Origin: Halichondria panicea
Lineage: Eukaryota; Porifera; Demospongiae; Suberitida; Halichondriidae
Direction: 5' to 3'
Length of the DNA: 64,000 bases
Assembly: GCF_963675165.1 (NCBI RefSeq)
Contig: NC_087393.1
Location: 869,502 to 933,501, forward strand
Shown here: one piece after another, positions 1-16,873 of the stretch
How positions within the stretch are numbered: position 1 is the first letter of the stretch
Layout of the letters: each line of letters begins with the position of its first letter
Program-made: the position numbers and the translations under genes
The notes under the pieces: model-generated
Seen by the model: the letters and a program-made list of their open reading frames with translations, nothing else
Database searches by the model: none
What the model was told of the DNA's origin: nothing

Positions 1-2065
1 CACCAATGTCTGAAGAGATCTCTCTTTTCTCTTTAGTGCCTCCTCAGTTGACCTTAGCTTGGCCTGCACCTCAATCTCAAGACATTTACTTTTCTCTAGC
101 TGTTTCTGAACGCTCTGTAGCTCAGTCTTTTGTGCGCTGTTTTTCTTCTCGAACTTAGTGCACTCCAATGTCAAGAGCTCTTTCATCGCCTCACTCTCCC
201 TGTTCATGTGCTCCTCAGCCAGTACCAACTTTTGTTGGCCTTCAAACTTGTGTATTTCTGATCGTTCCAATGCTTTCTTTGCGTCCAGTAGTTCGGTCTT
301 CAAAGCAGTGTATTTGTCAGCAAGCTCAGTGTTCTTTTTCAATAGCGCCTCCTTTGTCTCCTTCCAGACACTTCTTTCCTGTTCCAGACTCTCTTCATCC
401 AAAATCAACTTTGTCCGTGCCTCAAATTCAAGCAGCTCTGATCGCTCCAATTCTTTCTTCGTGTTCAATAACTCAGCCTCGATATAATTGCGATCCTCGA
501 TAAGCAACGTGCGGTTTGCCATCATCTGTTTTTCAATGTTCAGCCATTCTTTCCTTTTTCTCTCCATGTGCTCCTCTGCCAACATAACCAAGTTCTTGGT
601 ATCAGTCTCTTGTCGTTTAGAATCCTCCAATTCCCTTTTGACGTTAGTCATCTCAGCCTCCATGTCAGCAATACACTTCTCTACAAGCTTTTCATATTCG
701 GACACCAATGATTTTTTCGTTTTTGTCCATTCAGCCCGTTCGAGCTTAAACTTATCTTCTGACATTTTCGATCTTTTGTAAGACATCGACTTCATTAGTT
801 TGATTTGCTTCAGGTCATCATTCTTTTTAGCTAGTTCAAGCTGTAAGGTTATAAATTTTGATTACCATGCAATCATAGTAAAGAGTGTTATAATTATATA
901 TACCTTGAGGTGAGCATTATGTTTGGTAATGTCATGGAGCTCCTTGGACAGAGGGTTGAGAAGATCCTGGAGTGAGTCTGCATGTGTGGTTGCCTCTAAG
1001 AGCTTCGTAAGTAGAGTATCCCTCTCCAATGTCAGAATAGAGAGTTGGGACTCATTGTTGAGATTAATACCTATAAAGAGGTACAAAAAGTGCAATTATT
1101 AGTTTGTAAGCTACAACCAACTGTGACATTGCAGTCTAAGGGAAATTTGCAGCAACAACAGAATTGCATGATTATCTGCTCACCATATAGCGACTGGAAT
1201 TTCAATGCCAATGCCTTGCTTGTGGTAGTCCGTGCCCAGAGGTGGTACAGGGCAGTGCAAAGCACACACCCATACATAACAGTCACACATGTCAAGCCAA
1301 GATTTGGTCCCTATGAGAACAAACAATAATTATAATCAGCACATCAAGTTATAGCTCTTTGGCTCACCATGTGGTAGGTCCATTCATTCCAGTAGGAGTT
1401 GAGAAGATCTCCATAGGACAGTGTAGATCGATAGTGATGCAAGCGCAAGTAAGAGGCCGTTCCGCCAAATTCCGATTCTGATGCAAGGCTGACAGTTTCC
1501 AATTCCAATTCCAGATCAACTTCATACACGATGGTCGTGTAGTCAAACGCTTGTGTTTTTGAGTAATCAGTATCCAGAGTTGATGATAGGAGAAATGAGT
1601 TAAAATGCTTAAAATCCAGAGAGGTGTTCGCATGAACATGAGAGCCTTTATCGCTCAGTGGTGAAGAGTCGTTCGAAACAAGGTTTTCCCAAGCAGTTTG
1701 CAATACCTATGGAAAAAATTGATATAATTATAGCTAGCTAGCTAGTAAAAAAGCAATAAAAAGCAGCTCTTACGTCAATTTCTTTCAAGCAAAGTCCTTG
1801 CCTTGGGTTGAACAAGGCCCATTCTAAAGAGAGGGTAAAATCACTTCCTCCAAGAGACTGCAACTCATTCTGCAACTCATTCTTCAGGACTGTGCCTGAG
1901 CCTGTGATGAATAAATAAAGTATTACTAAAAATTAATGATCATTATTTTATTTTACCTAAGAAGCAGTTGGACAGTGTATTTTCTATCAAATGGGGAGGA
2001 GTTGAGAATCCGATTAGCACTGCTGCGGCCATGAGAATGGCACGTGCTGTGTTGCTTTCGAGCAT
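1..2065 (-). CDS. Coiled-coil single-TM protein, tandem copy A (3' end outside window)
   Basis: Family not recognised. Exons (+ coordinates) are 1957-2065, 1774-1901, 1368-1706, 1184-1310, 904-1070 and 4-840; the last exon lies beyond position 1. The start is MLESNTARAILMAAAVLIGF, which reads as a signal peptide or anchor. About 200 residues of predicted lumenal/extracellular sequence follow, then a hydrophobic segment (exon at 1184-1310, around LGLTCVTVMYGCVLCTALYHL), then a Lys/Glu/Leu-rich coiled coil. Every intron boundary matches copies B and C at the same phase, and lengths are identical except for two extra codons in exon 3. I see no stop in the exons inside the window, so this copy is probably functional. 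Position of the start is inferred: the frame is open upstream without another ATG. It lies head-to-head with dispanin copy 1. Confidence 0.72.
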
Positions 2066-2455
2066 CTTCTTGACCGAAGTAAACAATACTAGTAGCTGAT
2101 AAAATAATAGCCTTCTTTCTCACAATAGAACTCAAGAGATCTGCTTGCAGATTTTGCAGGAGAATGAATGAGTGATGAGTTGATCTACTATTGCCATGCA
2201 CACAAAAACGCATAAACGCTACATGACGTCATCCTATGCAGAGTGACGCGTCGGTAAATTTTTATGCCTATACCGATATGCGATATGCTGATAATTATAC
2301 TCATCTCTACATAAGGTAGCTCTCTTGATTTTCAGCTGTGACTAGAGCTATGCACTGCAGAATTATCGCAGCGCCATTTGCCTGTTGCAATTGAAAAAGG
2401 GTGGGGCTGCTGCATACTTACAGAGCATGCGCAAAACAGCAAACGGTTGTATGGT
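2066..2455. promoter_or_regulatory. Shared intergenic region of divergent module 1
   Basis: About 390 bp separate the coiled-coil copy A start (minus) from the first exon of dispanin copy 1 (plus). Equivalent regions exist in modules 2 (9276-9683) and 3 (14252-14682) and are similar in sequence, including a conserved CGCTACATGACGTCATCCTA stretch that holds a TGACGTCA CRE/ATF-like palindrome (about 2220-2240, 9421-9440, 14398-14417). A promoter role is inferred from position and conservation among the copies. Confidence 0.5.
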
Positions 2456-2737
2456 GTGTCTTTGTTCAAGTTTAAGTATTCAGCCATCACGGCCAATGAA
2501 GCAGGTAAGATTTATTGTAGCCAATAGCCATGTCTAAGCAGCTAGCTGGAAATTGTATGCAGCTTAGTTATACTTTATATAAATCTAACTCATCATAAAA
2601 TACAATCAGGCCTTACTTACAATCTTCTGTTGACCCTCCCCCCCCCCTGCAGATATCAAGAGTGAATGCAAAACACTGGAGGAGGAAGCAGAGAGTATAG
2701 TCATTGTGGATGTGAGTACTGAGTGATAAATAAGCAA

Positions 2738-3575
2738 TACAGTAGACTCTCGCTATTCCGGCTCTCTGAAGAACGGCCACCTCGATATACCAGCCATTTG
2801 GCTTAGCACGGAATGCTAGCTATAATATTATGTTTACTGCACAAAACTCACCCTGAAGTACGGCCACTCACTATTCCGTTTACCGGCCAGTGCTGGCTGT
2901 CCCAAACAAGATTTTCAACGTAATTTTATACGTACAGTATAGACTCTCCCTATTCCGGCTCTCTGAAGTACGGCCACTTCGATATACCGGCCATTTGGCT
3001 TGTCACGGAATGCTAGCTATAATAATTATGTTTACTGCACAAAACTCACCCTGAAGTACGGCCACTCGCTATTCCGTTTACCAGCCAGTGCTAGGTTTTC
3101 AATGTAATTTGATACGTATATTACGGCCGGATATGACGTTTTGGGTGTGGTTTAGCAAATAAAATTGGATTACACTGGTAGAGAACAGAATGATTCGATA
3201 TCCTACATTACCCTCGAGACAAGAACCGCAAAAGTAGTCATTAGATTCGAGGTAAGGTCGTTTTTAAGCCGCGGCTATTTCCTGAGCTACAGCCACCTTG
3301 CTATTCCGGCCAAGCTGCATAGTCCCAAGGGTGACCGGATTAACGAGAGTCCGGATATGACGTTTTGGGTGTGGTTTAGAAATAAATTGGATTACACTTA
3401 AATAGAGAACAGAATGATTCATTATCCTACATTATCCTCGAGACAAGAACCGCGTTATTAGATTCGAGGTAAGGTCGTTTTTAAGCCGCAGCTATTTCCT
3501 GAGATACAGCCACCTCGCTATTCTGGCCAAGCTGCATGGTCCCAAGGGTGACCGGATTAACGAGAGTCTACTGTA
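2738..3575. mobile_element. pogo/Tigger-like MITE with TA target duplication
   Basis: The ends are inverted repeats: CAGTAGACTCTCG at 2740 and CGAGAGTCTACTG ending at 3573, flanked by TA on both sides. The interior holds an imperfect tandem repeat of about 200 bp (starting near 2740 and 2938) built from CTATTCCGGCTCTCTGAAG and ACGGCCAC motifs, and a second pair of similar blocks at about 3130-3340 and 3350-3560. No transposase frame is seen. TA duplication plus CAGT termini fit the Tc1/mariner-pogo superfamily. The matching intron of the intact dispanin copy 3 lacks it. Confidence 0.75.
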
Positions 3576-3692
3576 ATGCCCCTAGCATGGCAACATGTGA
3601 GCTTCATGGTATAATTATAACTGGGATAGATTTTTAATTTGGGTCACTTGCACTCTATAAGCACTATGGAATGCACTCTTATTATAGGCTAC

Positions 3693-5834
3693 TTTAATTT
3701 GACAGCTCTGCAGAAGAAAGACGGGGGTGTTCGACCTATTGCCGTAGGCTGCACTCTTCGTCGTCTAGTTGCGAAACTAGCTGGACGCAAGATTATGGAC
3801 GAGATGGGAGAGCTCCTAGCCCCAAGGTATAGCTGGGCTATGGGGTGAGAGGTGGTGCAGAGGCAGCGGTTCATGTTGCTAGGCTATACTTGCAGGACAT
3901 TGACCCCAGCAAGGCCATTTTGAAACTAGATTTCAAGAATGCCTTCAATTCTATCCATAGGGACAAAGTTCTGGCTGCAGTTTTGGACCATGCCCAGGGC
4001 CTCTACCCTTTCATCCACTCAGCTTATTCCTCACCATTGTCGCTGTTCTGGGAGGACAAGACACTGCTATCAGCAGAGGGAGTGCAATAGGGGGAACATT
4101 TGGGGCCACTTCTCTTTTGTTTGTGCATCCACCACATGGGATCACAGCTCCAGTCAGAGTTGGGTTTCTTTTTTTTGGATGATGGTACTCTGGTAGGGAA
4201 TGTGGAAGACCTCAGACGTGATATTGAGGTGCTACAGCGTGTGGGTGCCTCAGTTGGCCTCGTACTGAATACAAAGAAGACTGAAATTATATCCTCCTCC
4301 CTCGAGACGTGTAACACAATCTTGTCCTATCTCCCTGGAGCTAAGATAGTAAATCCCTCGCAATCGTCCCTTTTAGGGTCATCAATCGGTGATGTTGCCT
4401 CCATCACTGATCTTCTTCAGGAGAAGATAACCATGTTGAGAAGAATGGGTGACAGGCTAAAACTACTTTGCACTCATGACGCCATCCTACTCCTCAAGCA
4501 CTCCTTTGCAATTCCAAAGCTCATCTATAATCTCAGGACTTCACTATGCTGCATTTCTTTCGCCAGCGCTGCAGGATTATAATGGCCACCTCAAGTCAAT
4601 TTTGAGCACTGTCACCAACATCCTCTTTGGGGAAGATGATCCTGCTTGGTTGCAGGCCACCCTTCCTGTAAATATGGGGGGACTTGGGATCAGGAATGTA
4701 GTGCAGCTTGCACCTTCAGCTTTTATAGCATCGGCTGCTGCCTCTTCAGACCTATAGTTCAACAAAATTTAATTGTTCCTCCAGCTCTCCAAGGCTGTCC
4801 TCTTATTAATGTAGAAGCCGTGGATGCCCAGTGGTCAGTTGGTCTCACCAATGCCCCACCAGAAGGTGCGGATAAGTGTAAACAGAAATCATGGGACACC
4901 ATAAAGGCATCAAATACAGCAGAAGGGCTTTTGGCAGATGCGCCAGATCCCAGATTGCTCGCTTACAGAGTGAAAGAGACGGGTGCCTGGCTAGATGTGC
5001 TGCCTATTTCTTCGCTAGGCCTAAGGATGAATGATAACACCATCAGAGTTGCTGTAGGCCTACGCCTTGGTGCCCCTCTATGCAGACCCCATTCCTGTTA
5101 TCACTGTGGAGCTGGGGTGGACAGTTTGGGCACTCATGGGCTCAGCTGCCGTAGCAGTGAAGGTCGACACCATCGTCATGCGGCTTTGAACGATATTGTG
5201 CATAGAACCCTCACCTCTGCAAAGATACCTGCACGCCTTGAACCATCAGGCCTACAACGGTCGGATGGGAAGCGCCCAGATGGCATCACCATGGTACCCT
5301 GGAAGTGTGGGAAGCTGCATGCTGGTGTGGGACGCGACCTGCCCGGACACCTTTCCCCCATCATACACCATAAGTGCTACCTCGGAGGCAGGGCTTGTAG
5401 CTGCAGGAGCAGAAGAGAGGATGGAGGCCAAATACACCAGCCTTGATTCGCTGCACTGCTTCACCCCACTAGCCATAGAGACTACAGGTGTTCTAGGGCC
5501 TAAGTCTAAGACATTATTTTGTTAAGGAATTAGGTGGGCGCATTGCACGTGTCACGGGAGATCAGAAGTCCTCCCATTACAGTTACTGCAAAGGCTGTCG
5601 GTCGCAGTACAGCGTGGAAATGCGGCCTCAGTGATGGGCACAATGGACTTGCAGACCCTCTCCCTCGAAACATTGGAACTTTGAATTACTACATTATTTA
5701 TTGTTGTACGAATTACACCTGGTCTGTACATGTATACGTATATACTATATATATTTTAATCTGTGAACTACATAATTTATTTTTCATCTTTAACTATTAT
5801 AATTATTGTAACGTAATTATTATATATTTAATTT
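3693..5834 (+). mobile_element. Non-LTR retrotransposon (LINE) fragment: reverse transcriptase, CCHC and PD-D endonuclease-like tail
   Basis: The element (3701-5826) is flanked by an 8-bp direct repeat TTTAATTT (3693-3700 and 5827-5834), a target-site duplication. Translated pieces give reverse-transcriptase blocks: KKDGGVRPIAVG, KLDFKNAFNSIHRDK, a GVQ-G-GPLLF region and a FLDDGTLVG catalytic box (normally Y-x-DD). Downstream comes a Cys/His motif (CYHCGAGVDSLGTHGLSC) and a KRPDG...WDATCPDT stretch resembling the restriction-like endonuclease of R2/CRE-type LINEs. The coding sequence moves between frames several times and the 5' end is missing, so it is dead and 5'-truncated. Clade assignment is tentative. 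It sits in intron 2 of dispanin copy 1. Confidence 0.75.
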
Positions 5835-6591
5835 ATGTTGTCCTTGGCCTTGCATGCTAAACTGAAACTACAACTCTCAGTAGGCAAAATGGAAGTTGAG
5901 AGAGTTCAGATTTTGTTTCGCTATTTGCAGTACAAGTTGATCGGTTTTGAGTATGGTGCTCCTGTGGGAGTGTCCCGTCCGAGCAACTATAGGGATAGGT
6001 TGCTCATGCAACAGCATGCTGCTGCTGCTGCTGCGCTGTTAAATGCTCCAACGATGTAAGCAGTTCGTCACAAAAAATTCAGTCTGTTCTACATTCATGC
6101 ATGTAATAATTATAATTATTATGGATGTGTACATTGTTTTGACACTGTAAGCTTGTGCATCAACAATAATTAATTTTTATAGTACCTTTATATTATTTTA
6201 AGCCTCTAGAAATTTATAGGTTTGCTGCCTTGTGCAGGTCAACTCCAATTAAGCTAAGAGTTGGGGACATGGAAGGAGCGAGGAAAGCTTCTGACAAGGC
6301 ACTCTGTTTCACCAACACTGCTGTGATGACTGGCCTATAGGCATTCAAACCGCCATTATTCTGCTTTTCGTGGCTATTCTGTTGGTACTTTAATTATTGG
6401 CTTATGATGCAGCTACTAAAGGATTTCGTTTCTAAGGCCATGCTGTAGAATGTTTTGAATGGTTGATTAATTGATTCACATTTACATTGTAACATTTACA
6501 TTGTAACGATCAACTATAACTATAATACAGTCATGCATAGCCATTGTCCAATAATCCAGTTCTGTGATTATTATAAGCTAGCTATAGCCAG

Positions 6592-9275
6592 CTATAGGGC
6601 ACCGTGTGACGAGAGGTCAGGTTCACTCGATATACCACTGTCCACAGCATCAACACGTCCACTAGCCACTTTGTGAGCAGAGCGGGGGGAATGTGGTACT
6701 GCACTGCGCCTTCTCTTTAGCAGTGCAATCTCTTCCCTGGCCAATTTAAGCTGCTTCTCTTCAGTAGCTTCTACCCTTTTCTGTGTCAGTAGGATAAACA
6801 ATAATTTTACTAGTTCACAATGATTATATACACGCTACTCACCAATGCCTGAAGAGATCTCTCTTTTCTCTTTAGTGCCTCCTCAGTTGACCTTAGCTTG
6901 GCCTGCAACTCAATCTCAAGACATTTATTTTTCTCTAGCTGTTTCTTAATGCTCTGTAGCTCAGTCTTTTGTGCGCTGTTTTTCTTCTCAAACTTAGTGC
7001 ACTCCAATGTCAAGAGCTCTTTCATCGCCTCACTCTCCCTGTTCATGTGCTCCTCAGCCAGTACCAACTTTTGTTGGCCTTCAAACTTGTGTATTTCTGA
7101 TCGTTCCAATGCTTTCTTTGTGTCCAGTAGTTCGGTCTCCAAAGCAGTGTATTTGTCAGCAAGCTCAGTGTTCTTATTCAATAGCGCCTCCTTTGTTTCT
7201 TTCCAGTCACTTCTTTCCTGTTCCAGACTCTCTTCATCCAAAATCAACTTTGTCTGTGCCTCAAATTCAAGCACCTCTGATCGCTCCAATGCTTTCTTCG
7301 TGTTCAATAACTCAGCCTCGATGTAATTTCGATCCTCAATAAGTATTGTGCGGTTTGCCATCATCTGTTTTTCAATGTTCAGCCATTCTTTTCTTTCCTG
7401 TTCCAGACTCTCTTCATCCAAAATCAACTTTGTCTGTGCCTCAAATTCAAGCAGCTCTGATCGCTCCAATGCTTTCTTCGTGTTCAATAACTCAGCCTCG
7501 ATGTAATTTCGATCCTCAATAAGTATTGTGCGGTTTGCCATCATCTGTTTTTCAATGTTCAGCCATTCATTTCTTTCCTGTTCCAGACTCTCTTCATCCA
7601 AAATCAACTTTGTCTGTGCCTCAAATTCAAGCAGCTCTGATCGCTCCAATGCTTTCTTCGTGTTCAATAACTCAGCCTCGATGTAATTTCGATCCTCAAT
7701 AAGTATTGTGCGGTTTGCCATCATCTGTTTTTCAATGTTCAGCCATTCTTTCCTTTTTCTCTCCATGTGCTCCTCTGCCAACATAACTAAGTTCTTGGTA
7801 TCAGTCTCCTGTCGTTTAGAACCCTCCAATTCCCTTTTGACGTTAGTCATCTCAGCCTCCTTGTCAGCAATATACTTCTCTACAAGCTTTTCATATTCGG
7901 ACACCAATGATTCTTTTGTTTTTTTCCATTGAGCCCGTTCGAGCTTAAACTTATCTTCTGACATTTTCGATCTTTTGTAAGACATCGACTTCATTAGTTT
8001 GATATGCTTCAGGTCATCATTCTTTTTAGCTAGTTCAAGCTGTAAGGTTATAAATTTTGATTACCATGCAATCATAGTAAAGAGTGTTATAATTATATAT
8101 ACCTTGAGGTGAGCATTATGTTTGGTAATGTCGTGGAGCTCCTTGGACAGAGAGTTGAGAAGATCCTGGAGTGAGTCTGCGTGTGTGGTTGTCTCTAAGA
8201 GCTTCGTAAGTAGAGTATCCCTCTCCAATGTCAGAATAGAGAGTTGGGACTCACTGTTGAGATTAACACCTATAAAGAGGTACAAAAAAGATAAGTGCAA
8301 TGTAGTTTGTAAGCTACAACCAACTGTACATTGCAGAATAATTTCTAAGGGAAATTTGCAGCAATAACAGAATTGCATTCATTATCTGCTCACCATATAG
8401 GGACTGGAATTTCAATGCCAATGCCTTGCTTGTGGTAGTCCGTGCCCAGAGGTGGTACAGGGCAGTGCAAAGCACACACCCATACATAACAGTCACACAT
8501 GTCAAGCCAAGATTTGGTCCCTATGAGAACAAACAATTATAATCAGCACATCAAGTTATAGCTCTTTGGCTCACCATGTGGTAGGTCCATTCATTCCAGT
8601 AGGAGTTGAGAAGATCTCCATAGGACAGTGTAGATCGATAGTGATGCAAGCGCAAGTAAGAGGCTGTTCCGTCAAATTCCGATTCTGATACAAGGCTGAC
8701 AGTTTCCAATTCCAGACCAACTTCATACACGATGGTCGTGTAGTCAAACGCTTGGGTTATCGAGTAATCAGTGTCCAGAGTTGATGAGAGGAGAAATGAG
8801 TTAAAATGCTTAAAATCCAGAGAGGTGTTTGCATGAACGTGAGAGTCTTCATCGTTTAGTGGTGAAGAGTCGTTCGAAACAAGGTTCTCCCCAGCAGTTT
8901 GCAATACCTATGGAAAAAATTTGACATAATTATAGCTAGCTCTAGCTAGCAAAAAAGCAATAAAATGCAGCCCTTACGTCAATTTCTTTCAAGCAAAGTC
9001 CTTGCCTTGGGTTGAACAAGGCCCATTCTAAAGAGAGGGTAAAATCACTTCCTCCAAGAGACTGCAACTCATTCTGCAATTCATTCTTCAGGACTGTGCC
9101 TGAGGCTGTGATGAACAAATAAAGTATTATTATCAGTTAGCTAGAATGATCATTATTTTATTTTACCTAAAAAGCAGTTGGACAGTGTATTTTCTATCAA
9201 ATGGGGAGGAGTTGAGAATCCAATTAGCACTGCTGCGGCCATGAGAATGGCACGTGCCGTACCACCTTCGAGCAT
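6592..9275 (-). CDS. Coiled-coil single-TM protein, tandem copy B
   Basis: Complete gene of seven exons: 9167-9275, 8978-9105, 8575-8907, 8394-8520, 8103-8269, 6843-8039 and 6592-6780. The phases close to one frame of 750 codons (749 residues). Order: N-terminal hydrophobic segment (MLEGGTARAILMAAAVLIGF), about 190 residues with little similarity to anything I know, a TM-like segment near residues 195-215, then coiled coil to residue about 685 and a basic/Ser-rich tail (KRRRSAVPHSPRSAHK). I infer an N-out, C-in type I membrane protein. Copy B is 117 residues longer than copy C because a 60-residue block beginning LNIEKQMMANRTILIEDRN is present three times. It is convergent with dispanin copy 1 and divergent from copy 2. 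Function unknown. Confidence 0.8.
7327..7750 (-). repeat. 180-bp in-frame tandem repeat inside coiled-coil copy B
   Basis: Three nearly identical 180-bp units lie in exon 6 of copy B (repeat starts near 7390, 7570 and 7750 on the + strand, running leftward). Each encodes the same 60 residues, including KALERSELLEFEAQTKLIL. Copies A and C have a single unit at the same place, so the expansion is specific to B. The unit length is a multiple of three, so the frame is kept. Confidence 0.9.
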
Positions 9276-9683
9276 CTTCTTGATTGAAGTAAACAATATC
9301 GTAGCTGATAAATAGCCTTCTTTCTCACAATAGAACTCAAGAGATCTGCTTGCAGATTTTGCAGGAGAATGAATGAGCGATGAGTTGATCTACTATTGCC
9401 ATGCACACAAAACGCATAAACGCTACATGACGTCATCCTATGCAGAGTGACGCGACGGTAAATTTTTGTGCCTACCATACCGATATGCTTACACATCTCT
9501 ACATAAGGTAGCTACATATTTGATTTAAGCTGTGAGCTATGCAATGCCTCATTATCGTACCTATATAGCGCCATTTGTCGTCGTTGCAATTGAAAAAGGG
9601 TGGGGCTGATGCAGACTAGCTTACAGAGCATGCGCAAAACTGCTTGTAGTTCATTGTAGCTGGTTGTGATATTCAATTGCATG

Positions 9684-11776
9684 ATGTTTTTGTTCAAGTT
9701 TAAGTATTCAACCATCATGGCCAATGAAGCAGGTAAGATTTATTGTAGCCAATAGCCATGTCTAAGCAGTTAGCTTGAAATTGCATGGAGCTTAGTTATA
9801 CTTTATAGATCTAACTCATCAAAAATACAATCAGGCCTTACTTACAATCTTCTGTTGACCCCCCCCCCTGCAGATATCAATACAAAACACTGGAGGAGGA
9901 AGCAGAGAGTATAGTCATTGTGGATGTGAGTACTGAGTGATAAATAAGCAATAATTCCCCTAGCCTCGACCCCAAGCCGATCCGTCTCCAATTGAACACT
10001 AGGTCGCCTCCTCGGCCTGGTATTGATTGTATCTGAGCGTGTATCTGGGTATGTGCTGTGGTTGCTTAGATATTCGCTCAAAACGAGTGAATAGAAATAA
10101 TAGTGTATGTAAGCATACTTACTCCGTAAAATCACCGTTAATAGTTTGTCAGAGATATAGCTATAGAGTGTGAGCTGTCTTGTGCGAAAGACAAGGCGAA
10201 GGAAGAAGGAGCACCACTCTTATATATGAAAGAACAGACCTAGGTTCTCAAGTTTCTGGCTATCTGTTGGCTACCTTTGATTAACTACACATTTAATACA
10301 AGCGCTTGATTAGACCATTGATCCAAATATACTTGGTGGAGTCTATCCTCAGACTCTGGCCATCAATCTCTTGTATACTATGCTCAGGGGTGTCCAAAAG
10401 TGGCTGCGTGCTGGGCCTGAGATGTATTGTCAAGGTGAGCGATGTAAATCAATAATATCCTTTCATCATTAGAAATTGTACACTATAGCCTATAGCCCAA
10501 AGATATGACATTATATACGGCACTGGCACTGGTGTTGTGTTAGCCTCCTTCACCGGCCTTCAAGGAAGTGCGACCTGGGATCGAGGCTATAGTGTTGTGT
10601 GGACCATCACTGTGAGTTACAAAATGTATAGTGGAATGATGAATTTAAAATCATATACTAATTTTTATACAGGAGCAAGATCGAACCGTTCCCCTCCAAC
10701 CCCCGTCGTACTCCTCCTAGCTGATGGGTGCGAACTCATTGAAAGAGGATGCCCCAGTGCCACTCGTGTCCTTCCCAAGGGGCCGATCTTATAGAACTAC
10801 CTGCACTAAAACTACTGACGTGGAATGGCTCTTTCAACACTTCTGGTTGCTATCCTGACCAGTGACGTCAGGATTCTACTGTCTCTTGATGCACTGTGAA
10901 CACATAATCTTTGTTATGCCACCTGGAAGCTCTTGTTTGAGATCTTCGCTTCTAAACGTCTGCATTTATTATGGACGCAGTACTGCTGTGCAGTATACTC
11001 TACAGATAACAGTATTAATTTCTAGTGTCATTATATCACTTTATTTTTAGCCAACTGTGATGAATGAAGACTTACAGTACATAGCACAAAATAATTCCTA
11101 CCAGTTTCCAGTCACGCCCAGATACAATCAATACCAGGCCGAGGGGCGACCTAGCGTTCAATTGGAGACGGATCGGTCTGGGGTCAATTAGGCAAAATAG
11201 AAGTTGAGAGTGTTCAGTTTTTAATGATTTCGTTTCGCTATAATTATTTGCAGTACAAGTTGGTTTTGAGTATGGTACTCCTGTGGCAGTGTCCCGTCCG
11301 AGCAACTATAGGGACAGGTTGCTTATGGCAACGGCATGCTGCTTGCTGCTGTGGTCCGCTGGCAGCTGTTAAATGCTCCAACGATGTAAGCAGCTCGTCA
11401 CAAAAAATTAAGTCTGTTCCTATAATGTATATACTACATTCATGCATGTAATAATTATAATGATTATGGATGTGTACATTATTTTGACACTGTAAGCTTG
11501 TGCATCAACAATATAATTATTTATAGTACCTTTATATTATTTTAAGCCTCTAGAAATTATAGGTTTGCTGCCTTGTGCAGGTCAACTCCAAGCTAAGAGT
11601 TGGGGACATGGAAGGAGCGAGGAAAGCTTCTGACAAGGCTCTCTGTTTCACCAACACTGCATGCTGTGATGACTGGCCTAGGCATTCTAACCGCCATTAT
11701 TCTGCTTTTCGTGGCTATTCTGTTGGTACTTATATTCATATTAATTGATGCAGCTACTAAAGGATTTCGTTTCTAA
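9684..11776 (+). pseudogene. Dispanin/CD225 gene, decayed copy 2
   Basis: Exon remnants are 9684-9732, 9874-9925, 11254-11385 and 11581-11776. The start codon is kept. Exon 2 lacks 7 bp relative to copy 3 and runs into a stop. Exon 3 lacks four bases after TACAAGTTG. The cysteine-cluster region has extra bases, and exon 4 has a 4-bp insertion (GCATGCTG in place of GCTG) before the transmembrane stretch. Part of intron 2 has been replaced by an inverted-repeat element (9959-11192). It is divergent from coiled-coil copy B and convergent with copy C. Confidence 0.82.
9959..11192. mobile_element. Non-autonomous DNA element with ~75-bp terminal inverted repeats
   Basis: The left end (about 9959-10040) and the reverse complement of the right end (about 11105-11192) share CCGATCCGTCTCCAATTGAA, then CGCTCGG-type sequence and TGGTATTGATTGTATCTG with few mismatches. 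The 1.1-kb interior has no credible transposase frame. Inside it, at about 10542-10589, is a very small TAGCCTC...GATCGAGGCTA element that recurs elsewhere in the window. It replaces much of intron 2 of dispanin copy 2. Superfamily not determined. Confidence 0.7.
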
Positions 11777-11920
11777 GGCCATGCTGTAGAATGTTTTGAA
11801 TGGTTGATTAATTGATTCACATTTACATTGTAACATTTACATTGTAACGATCAACTATTTATATATAATACAGTCATGCATAGCCATTGTCCAATAATCC
11901 AGTTCTGTGATTATTATAAG

Positions 11921-14251
11921 CTAGCCAGCTAGGGCACCGTGTGACGAGAGGTCCGGTTCACTCGATATACCACTGTCCACAGCATCAACACGTCCACTAG
12001 CCACTTTGTGAGCGGAGCGGGGGGAACGTGGTGGTACTGCACTGCGCCTTCTCTTTAGTAGTGCAATCTCTTCCCTGGCCAATTTAAGCTGCTTCTCTTC
12101 AGTAGCTTCTACCCTTTTCTGTGTCAGTAGGATAAACAATATTTTACTCGTTTACAATGATTATATACATGCTACTCACCAATGCCTGAAGAGATCTCTC
12201 TTTTCTCTTTAGTGCCTCCTCAGTTGACCTTAGCTTGGCCTGCAACTCAATCTCAAGACATTTATTTTTCTCTAGCTGTTTCTTAACGCTCTGTAGCTCA
12301 GTCTTTTGTGCGCTGTTTTTCTTCTCGAACTTAGTGCACTCCAATGTCAAGAGCTCTTTCATCGCCTCACTCTCCCTATTCATGTGCTCCTCAGCCAGTA
12401 CCAACTTTTGTTGGCCTTCAAACTTGTGTATTTCTGATCGTTCCAATGCTTTCTTTGTGTCCAGTAGTTCGGTCTCCAAAGCAGTGTATTTGTCAGCAAG
12501 CTCAGTGTTCTTATTCAATAGCGCCTCCTTTGTTTCCTTCCAGTCACTTCTTTCCTGTTCCAGACTCTCTTCATCCAAAATCAACTTTGTCTGTGCCTCA
12601 AATTCAAGCAGCTCTGATCGCTCCAATGCTTTCTTCGTGTTCAATAACTCAGCCTCGATGTAATTTCGATCCTCAATAAGTATTGTGCGGTTTGCCATCA
12701 TCTGTTTTTCAATGTTCAGCCATTCTTTTCTTTTTCTCTCCATGTGCTCCTCTGCCAACATAACCAAATTCTTGGTATCAGTTTCCTGTCGTTTAGAATC
12801 GTCCAATTCCCTTTTGACGTTAGTCATCTCAGCCTCCTTGTCAGCAATATACTTATCTACAAGCTTTTCATATTCGGACACCAATGATTCTTTTGTTTTT
12901 GTCCATTGAGCCCGTTCGAGCTTAAACTTATCTTCTGACATTTTCGATCTTTTGTAAGACATCGACTTCATTAGTTTGATATGCTTCAGGTCATCATTCT
13001 TTTCAGCTAGTTCAAGCTGTAAGGTTATAAATTTTGATTACCATGCAATCATAGTAAAGAGTGTTATAATTATATATACCTTGAGGTGAGCATTATGTTT
13101 GGTAATGTCATGGAGCTCCTTGGACAGAGGGTTGAGAAGATCCTGGAGTGAGTCTGCATGTGTGGTTGCCTCTAAGAGCTTCGTAAGTAGAGTATCCCTC
13201 TCCAATGTCAGAATAGAGAGTTGGGACTCACTGTTGAGATTAATACCTATATAAAGAGGTACAAAAAAGATAAGTGCAATGTAAAGTTATTAGTTTGTAA
13301 GCTACAACCAACTGTGACATTGCAGAATAATTTCTAAGGGAAATTTGCAGCAACAACAGAATTGCATGCATTATCTGCTCACCATATAGTGACTGGAATT
13401 TCAATGCCAATGCCTTGCTTGTGGTAGTCCGTGCCCAGAGGTGGTACAGGGCAGTGCAAAGCACACACCCATACATTACAGTCATACATGTCAAGCCAAG
13501 ATTTGGTCCCTATGAGAACAAACAAAAATTTGAATAAGCACATCAAGTTATAGCTCTTTGGCTCACCATGTGGTAGGTCCATTCATTCCAGTAGGAGTTG
13601 AGAAGATCTCCATAGGACAGTGTTGATCGATAGTGATGCAAGCGCAAGTCAGAGGCCGGTCCGTCAAATTCCGATTCCATTACAAGGCTGACAGTTTCCA
13701 ACTCCAGACCAACTTCATACACGATGGTCGTGTAGTCAAACGCTTGGGTTTTTGAGTAATCAGTGTCCAGAGTTGATGAGAGGAGAAATGAGTTAAAATG
13801 CTTAAAATCCAGAGAGGTGTTTGCATGAACGTGAGAGTCTTCATCGCTTAGTGGAGAAGAGTCGTTCGAAACAAGGTTCTCCCCAGCAGTTTGCAATACC
13901 TATGGAAAAAATTTTGATATAATTATAGCTAACTAGCAAAAAAGCAGCCCTTACGTCAATTTCTTTCAAGCAAAGTCCTTGCCTTGGGTTGAACAAGGCC
14001 CATTCTAAAGAGAGGGTAAAATCACTTCCTCCAAGAGACTGCAACTCATTCTGCAACTCATTCTTCAGGACTGTGCCTGAGCCTGTGATAAACAAATAAA
14101 GTATTAAAATTTTATTATCAGTTAGCCATTATTTTATTTTACCTAAAAAGCAGTTGGACAGTGTATTTTCTATCAAATGGGGAGGAGTTGAGAATCCAAT
14201 TAGCACTGCTGCGGCCATGAGAATGGCACGTGCCGTACCACCTTCGAGCAT
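11921..14251 (-). CDS. Coiled-coil single-TM protein, tandem copy C
   Basis: Complete seven-exon gene: 14143-14251, 13955-14082, 13567-13899, 13383-13509, 13080-13246, 12180-13016 and 11921-12118. Phases join into 633 codons (632 residues). Order: signal-peptide-like start (MLEGGTARAILMAAAVLIGF), an extracellular-type region containing SLEWALFNPRQGLCLKEID and a Ser/Thr-rich exon ending NSYWNEWTYHM, a TM-like segment (LGLTCMTVMYGCVLCTALYHL), then about 350 residues of heptad-rich coiled coil and a basic Ser/Pro tail. One copy of the 60-residue unit that is tripled in B. No homologue recognised. Head-to-head with the only intact dispanin gene, with 431 bp between starts, so the two are likely co-regulated. 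Confidence 0.82.
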
Positions 14252-14682
14252 CTTCTTGATTGAAGTAAACAATATCGTAGGTGATAAATAGCCTTCTTTC
14301 TCACAGTAGAACTCAAGAGATCTGCTTGCAGATTTTGCAGGAGAATGAATGAGTGATGAGTTGATCTACTATTGCCATGCACACAAAACTCATAAACGCT
14401 ACATGACGTCATCCTACCCAGGGTGACGCGACGGTAAATTTTTGTCCCTACTACCGTACCGATAATTATTATGCTTACACATATCTAGCTCTCTATACAA
14501 ATTTGATTTAAGTTGTGACTAGAGCTATACACTGCATAATTATCGTACCTATATAATTATATAGCGCCATTTGTCGGTCATTGCATTGAAAAAGGGTGGG
14601 GCGGCTGATGCAGACTAGCTTACAGAGCATGCGCAAAACAGCTTGTAGTTCATTGTAGCTGGTTGTGATATTCAATTGCGTG
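14252..14682. promoter_or_regulatory. Divergent promoter region of the intact module
   Basis: 431 bp lie between the copy C coiled-coil start and dispanin copy 3 start. The TGACGTCA CRE/ATF-type palindrome at about 14404-14411 is also present at the same place in modules 1 and 2. I see no TATA box at a clear distance from either start. Shared regulation is inferred. Confidence 0.5.
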
Positions 14683-15634
14683 ATGTCTTTGTTCAAGTTT
14701 AAGTATTCAGCCATCATGGCCAATGAAGCAGGTAAGATTTATTGTAGCCAATAGCCATGTCTAAGCAGCTAGCTGGAATTTGTATGCAGCTTAGTTATAC
14801 TTATAGATCTAACTCATCATAAAATACAATCAGGCCTTACTTACAATCTTCTGTTGACCCCCCCCCCCTGCAGATATCAAGAGTGAATGCAAAACACTGG
14901 AGGAGGAAGCAGAGAGTATAGTCATTGTGGATGTGAGTACTGAGTGATAAATAAGCATTTAGCATGCAACATGTGAGCTTCATGGTATAATTATAGATTT
15001 TAATTTTAGTCACTTGCACACAGTAAGCACTATGGAATGCACTCTCTTATTTTAGGCTCCTTAAACATGTTGTCTATGCATGCTAACTGAAACTACATCT
15101 CTCAGTAGACAAAATGGAAGTTGAGTGTTCAGTTTTTAATGATTTTGTTTCGCTCATTTGCAGTACAAGTTGATCGGTTTTGAGTATGGTGCTCCTGTGG
15201 CAGTGTCTCGCCCGAGCAACTATAGGGACAGGTTGCTCATGGCAACGGCATGCTGCTGCTGCTGTGGACTGGCAGCTGTTAAATGCTCCAACGATGTAAG
15301 CAGCTCGCCACAAAAAATTCAGTAATGTACTCCATTCATGCATGCAATAAGGATGTGTACATTTGACACTGTAAGCTTGTGTGTCAACAATGTAGTACCT
15401 TGTTAAGCCTCTAGGAATTTATAGGTTTGCTGCTTTGTGCAGGTCAACTCCAAGCTAAGAGTTGGGGACATGGAAGGAGCGAGGAAAGCTTCTGACAAGG
15501 CACTCTGTTTCACCAACACTGCTGTGATGACTGGCCTAGGCATTCTAACCGCCATTATTCTGCTTTTCGTGGCTATTCTGTTGGTACTTATATTTATATT
15601 CATTGATGCAGCTTCTAAAGGATTTCGTTTCTAA
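14683..15634 (+). CDS. Dispanin/CD225 (IFITM-like) protein, intact copy 3
   Basis: Exons 14683-14731, 14874-14932, 15164-15295 and 15443-15634 join to a 143-residue protein (132 if the second in-frame ATG at 14716 is used). The C-terminal half has the CD225 layout: a cysteine-rich intramembrane segment (LLMATACCCCCGLAAVKCS), the conserved loop NSKLRVGDMEGARKASDKA, and a C-terminal TM helix (MTGLGILTAIILLFVAILLV). In IFITMs the equivalent loop is KSRDRKMVGDVTGAQAYAS. The five adjacent cysteines are candidate palmitoylation sites. Family members are type II-like membrane proteins of the cell surface and endosomes; vertebrate IFITMs restrict virus entry, but a defence role here is only a possibility. 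Size fits the family (about 125-145). Confidence 0.85.
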
Positions 15635-15809: not shown

Positions 15810-16061
15810 TTACAAATTTCCTAAGATGTACAAACTCACAAACGCAATCAGCATCATCTGAAAGAAAATAAAAACAACAGCTAACATAGTGTTTGCTCGT
15901 AGGAACAGTTTAATGATTTTTGAGAAACTGTTTGGATTGGACTTGTTGAATAGAGCAGCTGTATTGGGCTTTGACTGATGTCTCCTGTCTCTTGGAAGGC
16001 TCTTACGAATACTGAGATGGTCCACTGGTATACCCTCTCTGCTCAACAGGGACTCTACACC

Positions 16062-16119
<58 letters not shown>

Positions 16120-16873
16120 GTGTGTGTATAATTATGTGTGTATGTTTGTATGTGTAACAAGGTGGTTAGGACATCGTACATAGCTAAGTTGATATAATAT
16201 GACTGTTAAAAATAACTGTCTGTCAATAAGAAACTATCAAGCAGAGCGCTAAGTGATAGGGAAACACATAATGCATACACTTGACTTTCACTAGTAATAT
16301 CTACATGATATTGATTGTACAGCACGTGTACATTGTGCAGAACACTTGCCTGCTTTTTCTCTGTCTGGTAGGCCAGTGGGAGCCTCTAGAAACAGCCAGG
16401 CCTCGCCGTTGTGAGAGAGATAAGAGGCAAATGTGATCAGGCTGCAACGGTCTAGAATCTAAGAGAGGGGGGGGGTAATAGGGGGGTTAATAGTAAAAGA
16501 ACTACATTACAGTGTGTGGTGATGCATACGTGTTTTTTGTTTTTTTACTGTGATTCTGTACCCAAAAGGAGGGCCAAAACTGTTTTAAGCACAACATTTG
16601 AAACTAAGCTTTCAGAAACACACAAACTAGATCACCAGATCGAAACTAAGTTACAAATGCTTGCAACTGCATACTCTACCTCTCATATTAACGCTTCTCC
16701 CTATGTACCTTTTGTTCAACGGGTACGGACCAGAATGTTTCCCCGTTCCTCTCCACCCGCCACTTGACTCGTCCGACCAACCAGATCCTGCCGTCCTTAT
16801 CCATGTAACCGGCATCCTCGATCCTCAGCCACACAAGACCATCATCATCTGTTAGTAATCTAGCAGCGTCCAC

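Follow-up and report, generated by a model that had tools for sequence, protein, structure and literature searches.

The 64,000-nucleotide stretch of the genome of the sponge Halichondria panicea analysed here (the window; contig C17, positions 869502-933501) begins inside a tandem array that is probably best understood as a series of copies of an undescribed membrane coiled-coil gene, with a head-to-head dispanin gene as a passenger. The array comprises seven divergent units at C17:847-885 kb, each about 5 kb long, with the coiled-coil gene on the minus strand and the dispanin on the plus strand. In 7/7 units the coiled-coil gene is intact, with seven exons, AG/GT at all internal boundaries and one open frame of 631-749 residues. 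The dispanin is intact only in unit 7 (1/7), while the copies of units 1-6 are all disrupted by frameshifts, stops or a missing exon.

Alignment of one unit to the joined sequence places the unit starts at C17:847188, 852267, 858071, 863442, 869225, 876059 and 881402. Units 1-4 and the initial 277 bp of unit 5 lie upstream of the window, which contains most of unit 5 and all of units 6 and 7; the array thus continues past the window edge, and no additional unit was found in the 17.7 kb to its left. A first-pass annotation of this DNA had described three copies of the divergent pair with starts about 430 bp apart. Three units are indeed present in positions 1-15634, as part of an array of seven, and their starts are 390, 408 and 431 bp apart. 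In the genome searched (131.5 Mb, 39 contigs), the exon 6 protein gave nine matches, all on C17 and belonging to the seven copies. Coiled-coil coding DNA is 97% identical between copies. The copies are 4-9% apart at silent sites and differ in their intron inserts, which makes a false assembly duplication unlikely.

The coiled-coil copies carry the signature of purifying selection. Summed over the 21 pairs, the ratio of nonsynonymous to synonymous differences (pN/pS) is 0.344, and the pairwise ratio of the corresponding substitution rates (dN/dS) is 0.24-0.47. We also compared gap runs between copies, counted as distinct start-end pairs, so that a single event may be split or doubly counted. 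The coiled-coil coding sequence has six in 2280 columns (2.6/kb), all six multiples of three, as against 18 in 409 columns (44/kb; four multiples of three) for dispanin exons 2-4 and 61 in 1171 columns (52/kb; 18 multiples of three) for the coiled-coil introns and the spacer, the latter counted from six of the seven units with unit 4 dropped. Fisher P for the coiled-coil coding sequence is 0.0016 versus dispanin and 0.0013 versus non-coding DNA. Had the coiled-coil coding sequence gained gap runs as fast as non-coding DNA, it should have about 119; the six seen are all in frame. With 44 versus 52 gap runs per kb, the dispanin exons decay near the non-coding pace. The first-pass annotation had found every coiled-coil copy open and decay in two of its three dispanins, and had proposed possible separate selection on the partner. 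These points hold over the whole array, with the last exon of unit 5 read from outside the window.

The identification of the plus-strand gene as a dispanin, made from the letters alone, is likewise borne out. The 143-residue protein of unit 7 matches Pfam CD225 over residues 54-117 with 46.5 bits (gathering cut-off 27.1) and has hydrophobic windows at 60-78 and 114-132, with 11 residues beyond the second. We used as criteria the family features given in PMC3282796, namely a GD motif, A-X6-A, a double cysteine, an aspartate and a splice site in the inter-helix loop. The unit 7 protein carries VGDMEG (GD motif), ARKASDKA (A-X6-A), ACCCCC (helix 1 cysteines) and NYRDRLLM (Asp before helix 1), and its exon 3/exon 4 junction falls in the inter-helix loop, between KCSND and VNSK. 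It thus shares CD225, two hydrophobic helices, both motifs, the helix 1 cysteines and the splice site with the dispanin/CD225 family (PF04505; IFITM, PRRT2, SynDIG1), but differs in having five consecutive cysteines in helix 1 and six disrupted sister copies. Sponge dispanins are not without precedent: PMC7653359 reports one possible Dispanin C1 for O. carmela.

In the six dispanin models of units 1-6, the frame across both helices is never open. In exon 2, units 1 and 6 have a 7-nt deletion. Exon 4 has a 10-nt deletion in units 2 and 4, an 8-nt deletion in units 1 and 3 and a 2-nt insertion in units 2 and 5, and there are other indels. Exon 1 of unit 4 is not recognisable, and GTG stands at the start position in units 2 and 5, unit 2 retaining another ATG in the same frame. 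Units 1-4 have kept the frame of exon 3, and partial proteins could therefore still come from some copies. Two introns hold what appear to be insertions. The unit 5 dispanin has frames in its intron 2 (3939-5525) that seem to belong to an inserted element; the three frames tested are without a Pfam match at E<=0.01. In the unit 6 dispanin, intron 2 contains 41-nt inverted repeat arms, 93% complementary and 1.1 kb apart (9968-10008 and 11145-11185), which are probably the ends of an inserted element.

The tree of coiled-coil copies, ((1,(3,5)),((2,4),(6,7))), has all four inner forks well supported, and the way in which the copies alternate along the array points to a duplicated two-unit block. 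Besides the 8-nt deletion, units 1 and 3 have 677 bp of dispanin intron 2 in common, and units 2 and 4 agree in intron inserts as well as in the 10-nt deletion, which fits onward copying of dispanins that were already broken; spread of the lesions by conversion is the alternative. The array would have grown by unequal exchange, the two-unit block included. Selection would have kept the coiled-coil copies open, and the dispanin, sitting on the short divergent promoter of the coiled-coil gene, would have been carried along and have decayed everywhere except in unit 7.

The coiled-coil protein resembles a type I membrane tether, with a signal peptide, a small ectodomain, one transmembrane (TM) segment, a long helical rod and a degron-like tail. 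Its two hydrophobic stretches have their best windows at residues 9-27 and 194-212. After residue 233, the strongest self-match of the unit 7 protein is at a period of 60 residues (periods 20-139 scanned), and the gene of unit 6 is 360 nt longer through two additional 180-nt repeats. Exon 6 of unit 7, modelled alone and without an alignment, gives a single helix over residues 28-278 of 279 with a mean predicted local distance difference test (pLDDT) score of 83; the AlphaFold model of exon 3, from the ectodomain, has a mean pLDDT of 45, too low for a fold search. All seven array tails contain VDSGISSEPDLSS, in which DSGISS is an exact instance of DSGXXS, the motif described for beta-TrCP substrates in PMC5954166. 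Pfam searches with four family members returned no family at E<=0.01 for any of them; a search at E<=1 gave only two matches, both sub-cut-off (E 0.17 and 0.19). A PDB sequence search with the family gave nothing at E<=0.01, and the best match for residues 1-233 (E 0.47) was regarded as chance. CLIMP-63, kinectin, the golgins and similar long-rod membrane tethers combine one membrane anchor with a long cytosolic helical rod. The coiled-coil protein would share this layout but differs in its SLEWxLF ectodomain motif, its DSGI tail, its 60-residue repeats and its lack of a significant Pfam or PDB match.

From these features we infer the signal peptide, the membrane topology, tethering and use of the degron. 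The signal peptide would be cleaved, leaving a small outward domain, one TM segment and, in the cytosol, a helical rod built from some four 60-residue repeats, with two more of them in unit 6, and the DSGXXS tail could mark the protein for regulated breakdown. Read from this anatomy, a type I membrane tether or scaffold is the most likely role, at about an even chance.

Counts of matches in the genome searches are lower bounds. The full coiled-coil protein gave at least 52, 49 of them within the array. The other three are weak (E 0.006-0.011) and hit the TM exon at loci on C7, C2 and C9. The genes there follow the order of the array gene, namely signal peptide, SLEW block, TM exon, helix-rich region and DSGI tail (the last exon of the C2 relative was read by eye); their tail motifs, DSGISLS, DSGIFES and DSGIFLS, are not exact DSGXXS. 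Reverse searches from the C9 and C2 relatives each returned the TM exon of 7/7 array copies (E 0.0016-0.019). Two short fragments were found at C10:4050363 and C9:6400903, and the C9 query had a weak match at C15:1823893 (E 0.028, 33% identity). A tblastn search of prokaryote genomes and viral contigs gave no coiled-coil relative, the 5 and 11 pattern matches not being confirmed. About 2.7 kb past the C9 relative, at C9:6330.5-6331.0 kb (L037 8449-8862), two of three tested frames match the SID-1 double-stranded RNA channel family (PF13965).

CD225 matches in the genome number at least 37. Four belong to the array; the remaining 33 comprise 20 at C17:662-682 kb, three elsewhere on C17, nine on C14 and one on C6. 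The search found none on C2, C7 or C9, the contigs of the three coiled-coil relatives, and none of the 33 lies near any coiled-coil family gene found by the searches. The region C17:662-682 kb is a dense cluster of dispanin exons, 165 kb from the array, and no coiled-coil family match was found in it.

The palindrome TGACGTCA, which the first-pass annotation had noted in each spacer, is present 151-158 bp from the coiled-coil ATG in 7/7 units. Across the seven units, identity on the coiled-coil side of the spacer is 97.6% (on the dispanin side, 86.8% across six), so survival within the array says little; we rejected it as a sign of selection and count only the promoters of the relatives. There, TGACGTCA stands 143 bp before the C2 gene start and 107 bp before that of C7. 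With 14 sites in 134 kb, five of them outside coiled-coil promoters, its occurrence within 200 bp of two of the three relatives has P about 0.00017 on that local background. It is absent at 8/8 other dispanin loci, which represent eight of the 33 matches and come from the C17:664-682 kb cluster; at 3 kb each, these loci may miss promoters. As it precedes two of the three relatives, on whose contigs no dispanin was found, the palindrome fits the promoter of the coiled-coil gene.

At C7 this promoter also seems to be shared with another gene: an opposite-strand frame beginning MAVQEVV (L035:6303) lies head to head with the relative, and the palindrome sits in the 217 bp that separate their start codons. 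Neither this frame nor the next one tested has a Pfam match; a Myb-domain frame 2.5 kb further along the same strand may or may not be part of the same gene. CREB prefers bidirectional promoters in human cells, according to PMC2774331. The array is like the bidirectional promoters of CREB targets described there, which contain a cAMP response element (CRE), in having TGACGTCA between divergent starts less than 500 bp apart, and unlike them in that the partner gene differs between array and C7 and that CREB binding is putative here. Control of the coiled-coil promoter by CREB/ATF is likely, to judge from the CRE-type palindrome that it carries.

Table 1. Features of the array within the window (positions counted from its first letter).
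Feature	Position	Strand	Details
Coiled-coil gene, unit 5	4..2065	minus	Exons 1-6: 1957-2065, 1774-1901, 1368-1706, 1184-1310, 904-1070, 4-840; exon 7 upstream of window; AG/GT at each internal boundary, frame open
TGACGTCA palindrome, unit 5 spacer	2224..2231		
Broken dispanin, unit 5	2456..6435	plus	Exons 2456-2504, 2653-2711, 5931-6055, 6238-6435; GTG at start position; exons 3 and 4 frameshifted; intron 2 of 3.2 kb
Coiled-coil gene, unit 6	6592..9275	minus	7 exons: 9167-9275, 8978-9105, 8575-8907, 8394-8520, 8103-8269, 6843-8039, 6592-6780; 749 aa; splice sites and frame intact
180-nt repeat, three times in exon 6 of unit 6 (once in other copies)	7203..7862	minus	Adds two 60-residue repeats
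TGACGTCA palindrome, unit 6 spacer	9428..9435		
Broken dispanin, unit 6	9684..11776	plus	Exons 9684-9732, 9874-9925, 11254-11385, 11581-11776; 7-nt deletion in exon 2, indels in exon 3, 4-nt insertion in exon 4
Coiled-coil gene, unit 7	11921..14251	minus	7 exons: 14143-14251, 13955-14082, 13567-13899, 13383-13509, 13080-13246, 12180-13016, 11921-12118; 632 aa; splice sites and frame intact
TGACGTCA palindrome, unit 7 spacer	14404..14411		152 bp from coiled-coil ATG
Intact dispanin, unit 7	14683..15634	plus	4 exons: 14683-14731, 14874-14932, 15164-15295, 15443-15634; 143 aa

The first-pass annotation had suggested a functional or at least co-regulated pair. In the functional reading, dispanin and coiled-coil protein act together in membranes and were amplified for that reason. 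The short head-to-head spacing in the three window units, the one intact dispanin and the retention of GAAAAAGGGTGGGGC (6/6 aligned units) and GCATGCGCA (5/6) on the dispanin side of the spacer are in its favour, but we now consider it unlikely: six of seven dispanins are broken, their exons gain indels near the non-coding rate, some of their lesions are common to copies with open coiled-coil genes, and the dispanin half of the spacer has diverged. With most copies broken and no dispanin found on the relatives' contigs, a functional dispanin partner was rejected. Co-regulation of the two genes, most of all in unit 7, is possible.

Little probability attaches to a neutral array, in which two neighbours were duplicated together and the coiled-coil copies look intact through youth and gene conversion. 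Silent-site divergence is indeed low, introns 5 and 6 are nearly identical, and dispanin lesions common across the tree point to conversion; yet the deficit of gap runs in the coiled-coil coding sequence, the 18 runs in the dispanin exons of the same units and the pN/pS of 0.34 argue against it. We regard as very improbable a recognition family, immune or self/non-self, whose ectodomain diversifies and for which the array is a repertoire. Seven open copies would suit such a family, as would the in-frame length variants of the main ectodomain exon (333, 339 and 348 nt) and of the rod, but residues 1-233 (signal, ectodomain and TM) are slightly more constrained than the remainder (pN/pS 0.305 versus 0.376), coding DNA is highly similar between copies, and these ratios show no sign of positive selection.

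Several observations weigh against the interpretation that we prefer, an array of a selected coiled-coil gene with a dispanin passenger. The dispanin lesions partly cross the coiled-coil tree (the 7-nt deletion of units 1 and 6, the 2-nt insertion of units 2 and 5), and dispanin exons 3-4 place units 1, 3 and 4 closest; such off-tree lesions indicate that conversion or recombination mixed the dispanin halves of units. Coiled-coil introns 5 and 6 are 98-99% identical versus 91-93% for introns 1-3, and gene conversion could help to keep the coiled-coil copies alike. As to the protein, global heptad power at period 3.5 is not raised, and the local heptad test is modest, with 13/300 shuffles equally high. 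As to the promoter, the C9 relative has only half of the palindrome (AACGTCA), and the preference of CREB for bidirectional promoters means that the palindrome may mark a promoter class, not the family. Both genes are known here from genomic sequence alone.

The surroundings of the array contain other genes. To its left, a lysine methyltransferase-like exon (PF10294) is found at L010 4956-5327. After the array, a minus-strand frame at 15810-16205 of the window combines a simple-repeat stretch with a hydrophobic C-terminus and has no Pfam match at E<=0.01. Among the other frames of the window are those of a SAP-domain protein, which also has an RPEL match below threshold, and of a cullin-binding protein, as well as one that is fascin-like, a content in keeping with an animal.

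Among the papers found on dispanin, IFITM or CD225 in sponges or Amphimedon, or on sponge tandem coiled-coil families, none had a title or abstract on this pair. It is tempting to link an antiviral-type gene with a new partner; the array corrects this link, as selection acts on the partner and, for the most part, spares no dispanin from decay, and our findings give no support for an antiviral role. We infer selection for the dose of the coiled-coil gene. More tentatively, the array may represent an animal family of CRE-controlled membrane tethers, with dose set by tandem copy number and rod length by the number of 60-residue repeats, in which the divergent promoter would be the conserved core and the far-side partner exchangeable (dispanin at the array, another gene on C7). 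The SLEWxLF block, the TM exon and the DSGI tail are marks by which this animal membrane protein family, which is without a significant Pfam or PDB match, can be sought in other sponges, and the array is a natural test of how a shared divergent promoter behaves after repeated loss of the gene on one side.

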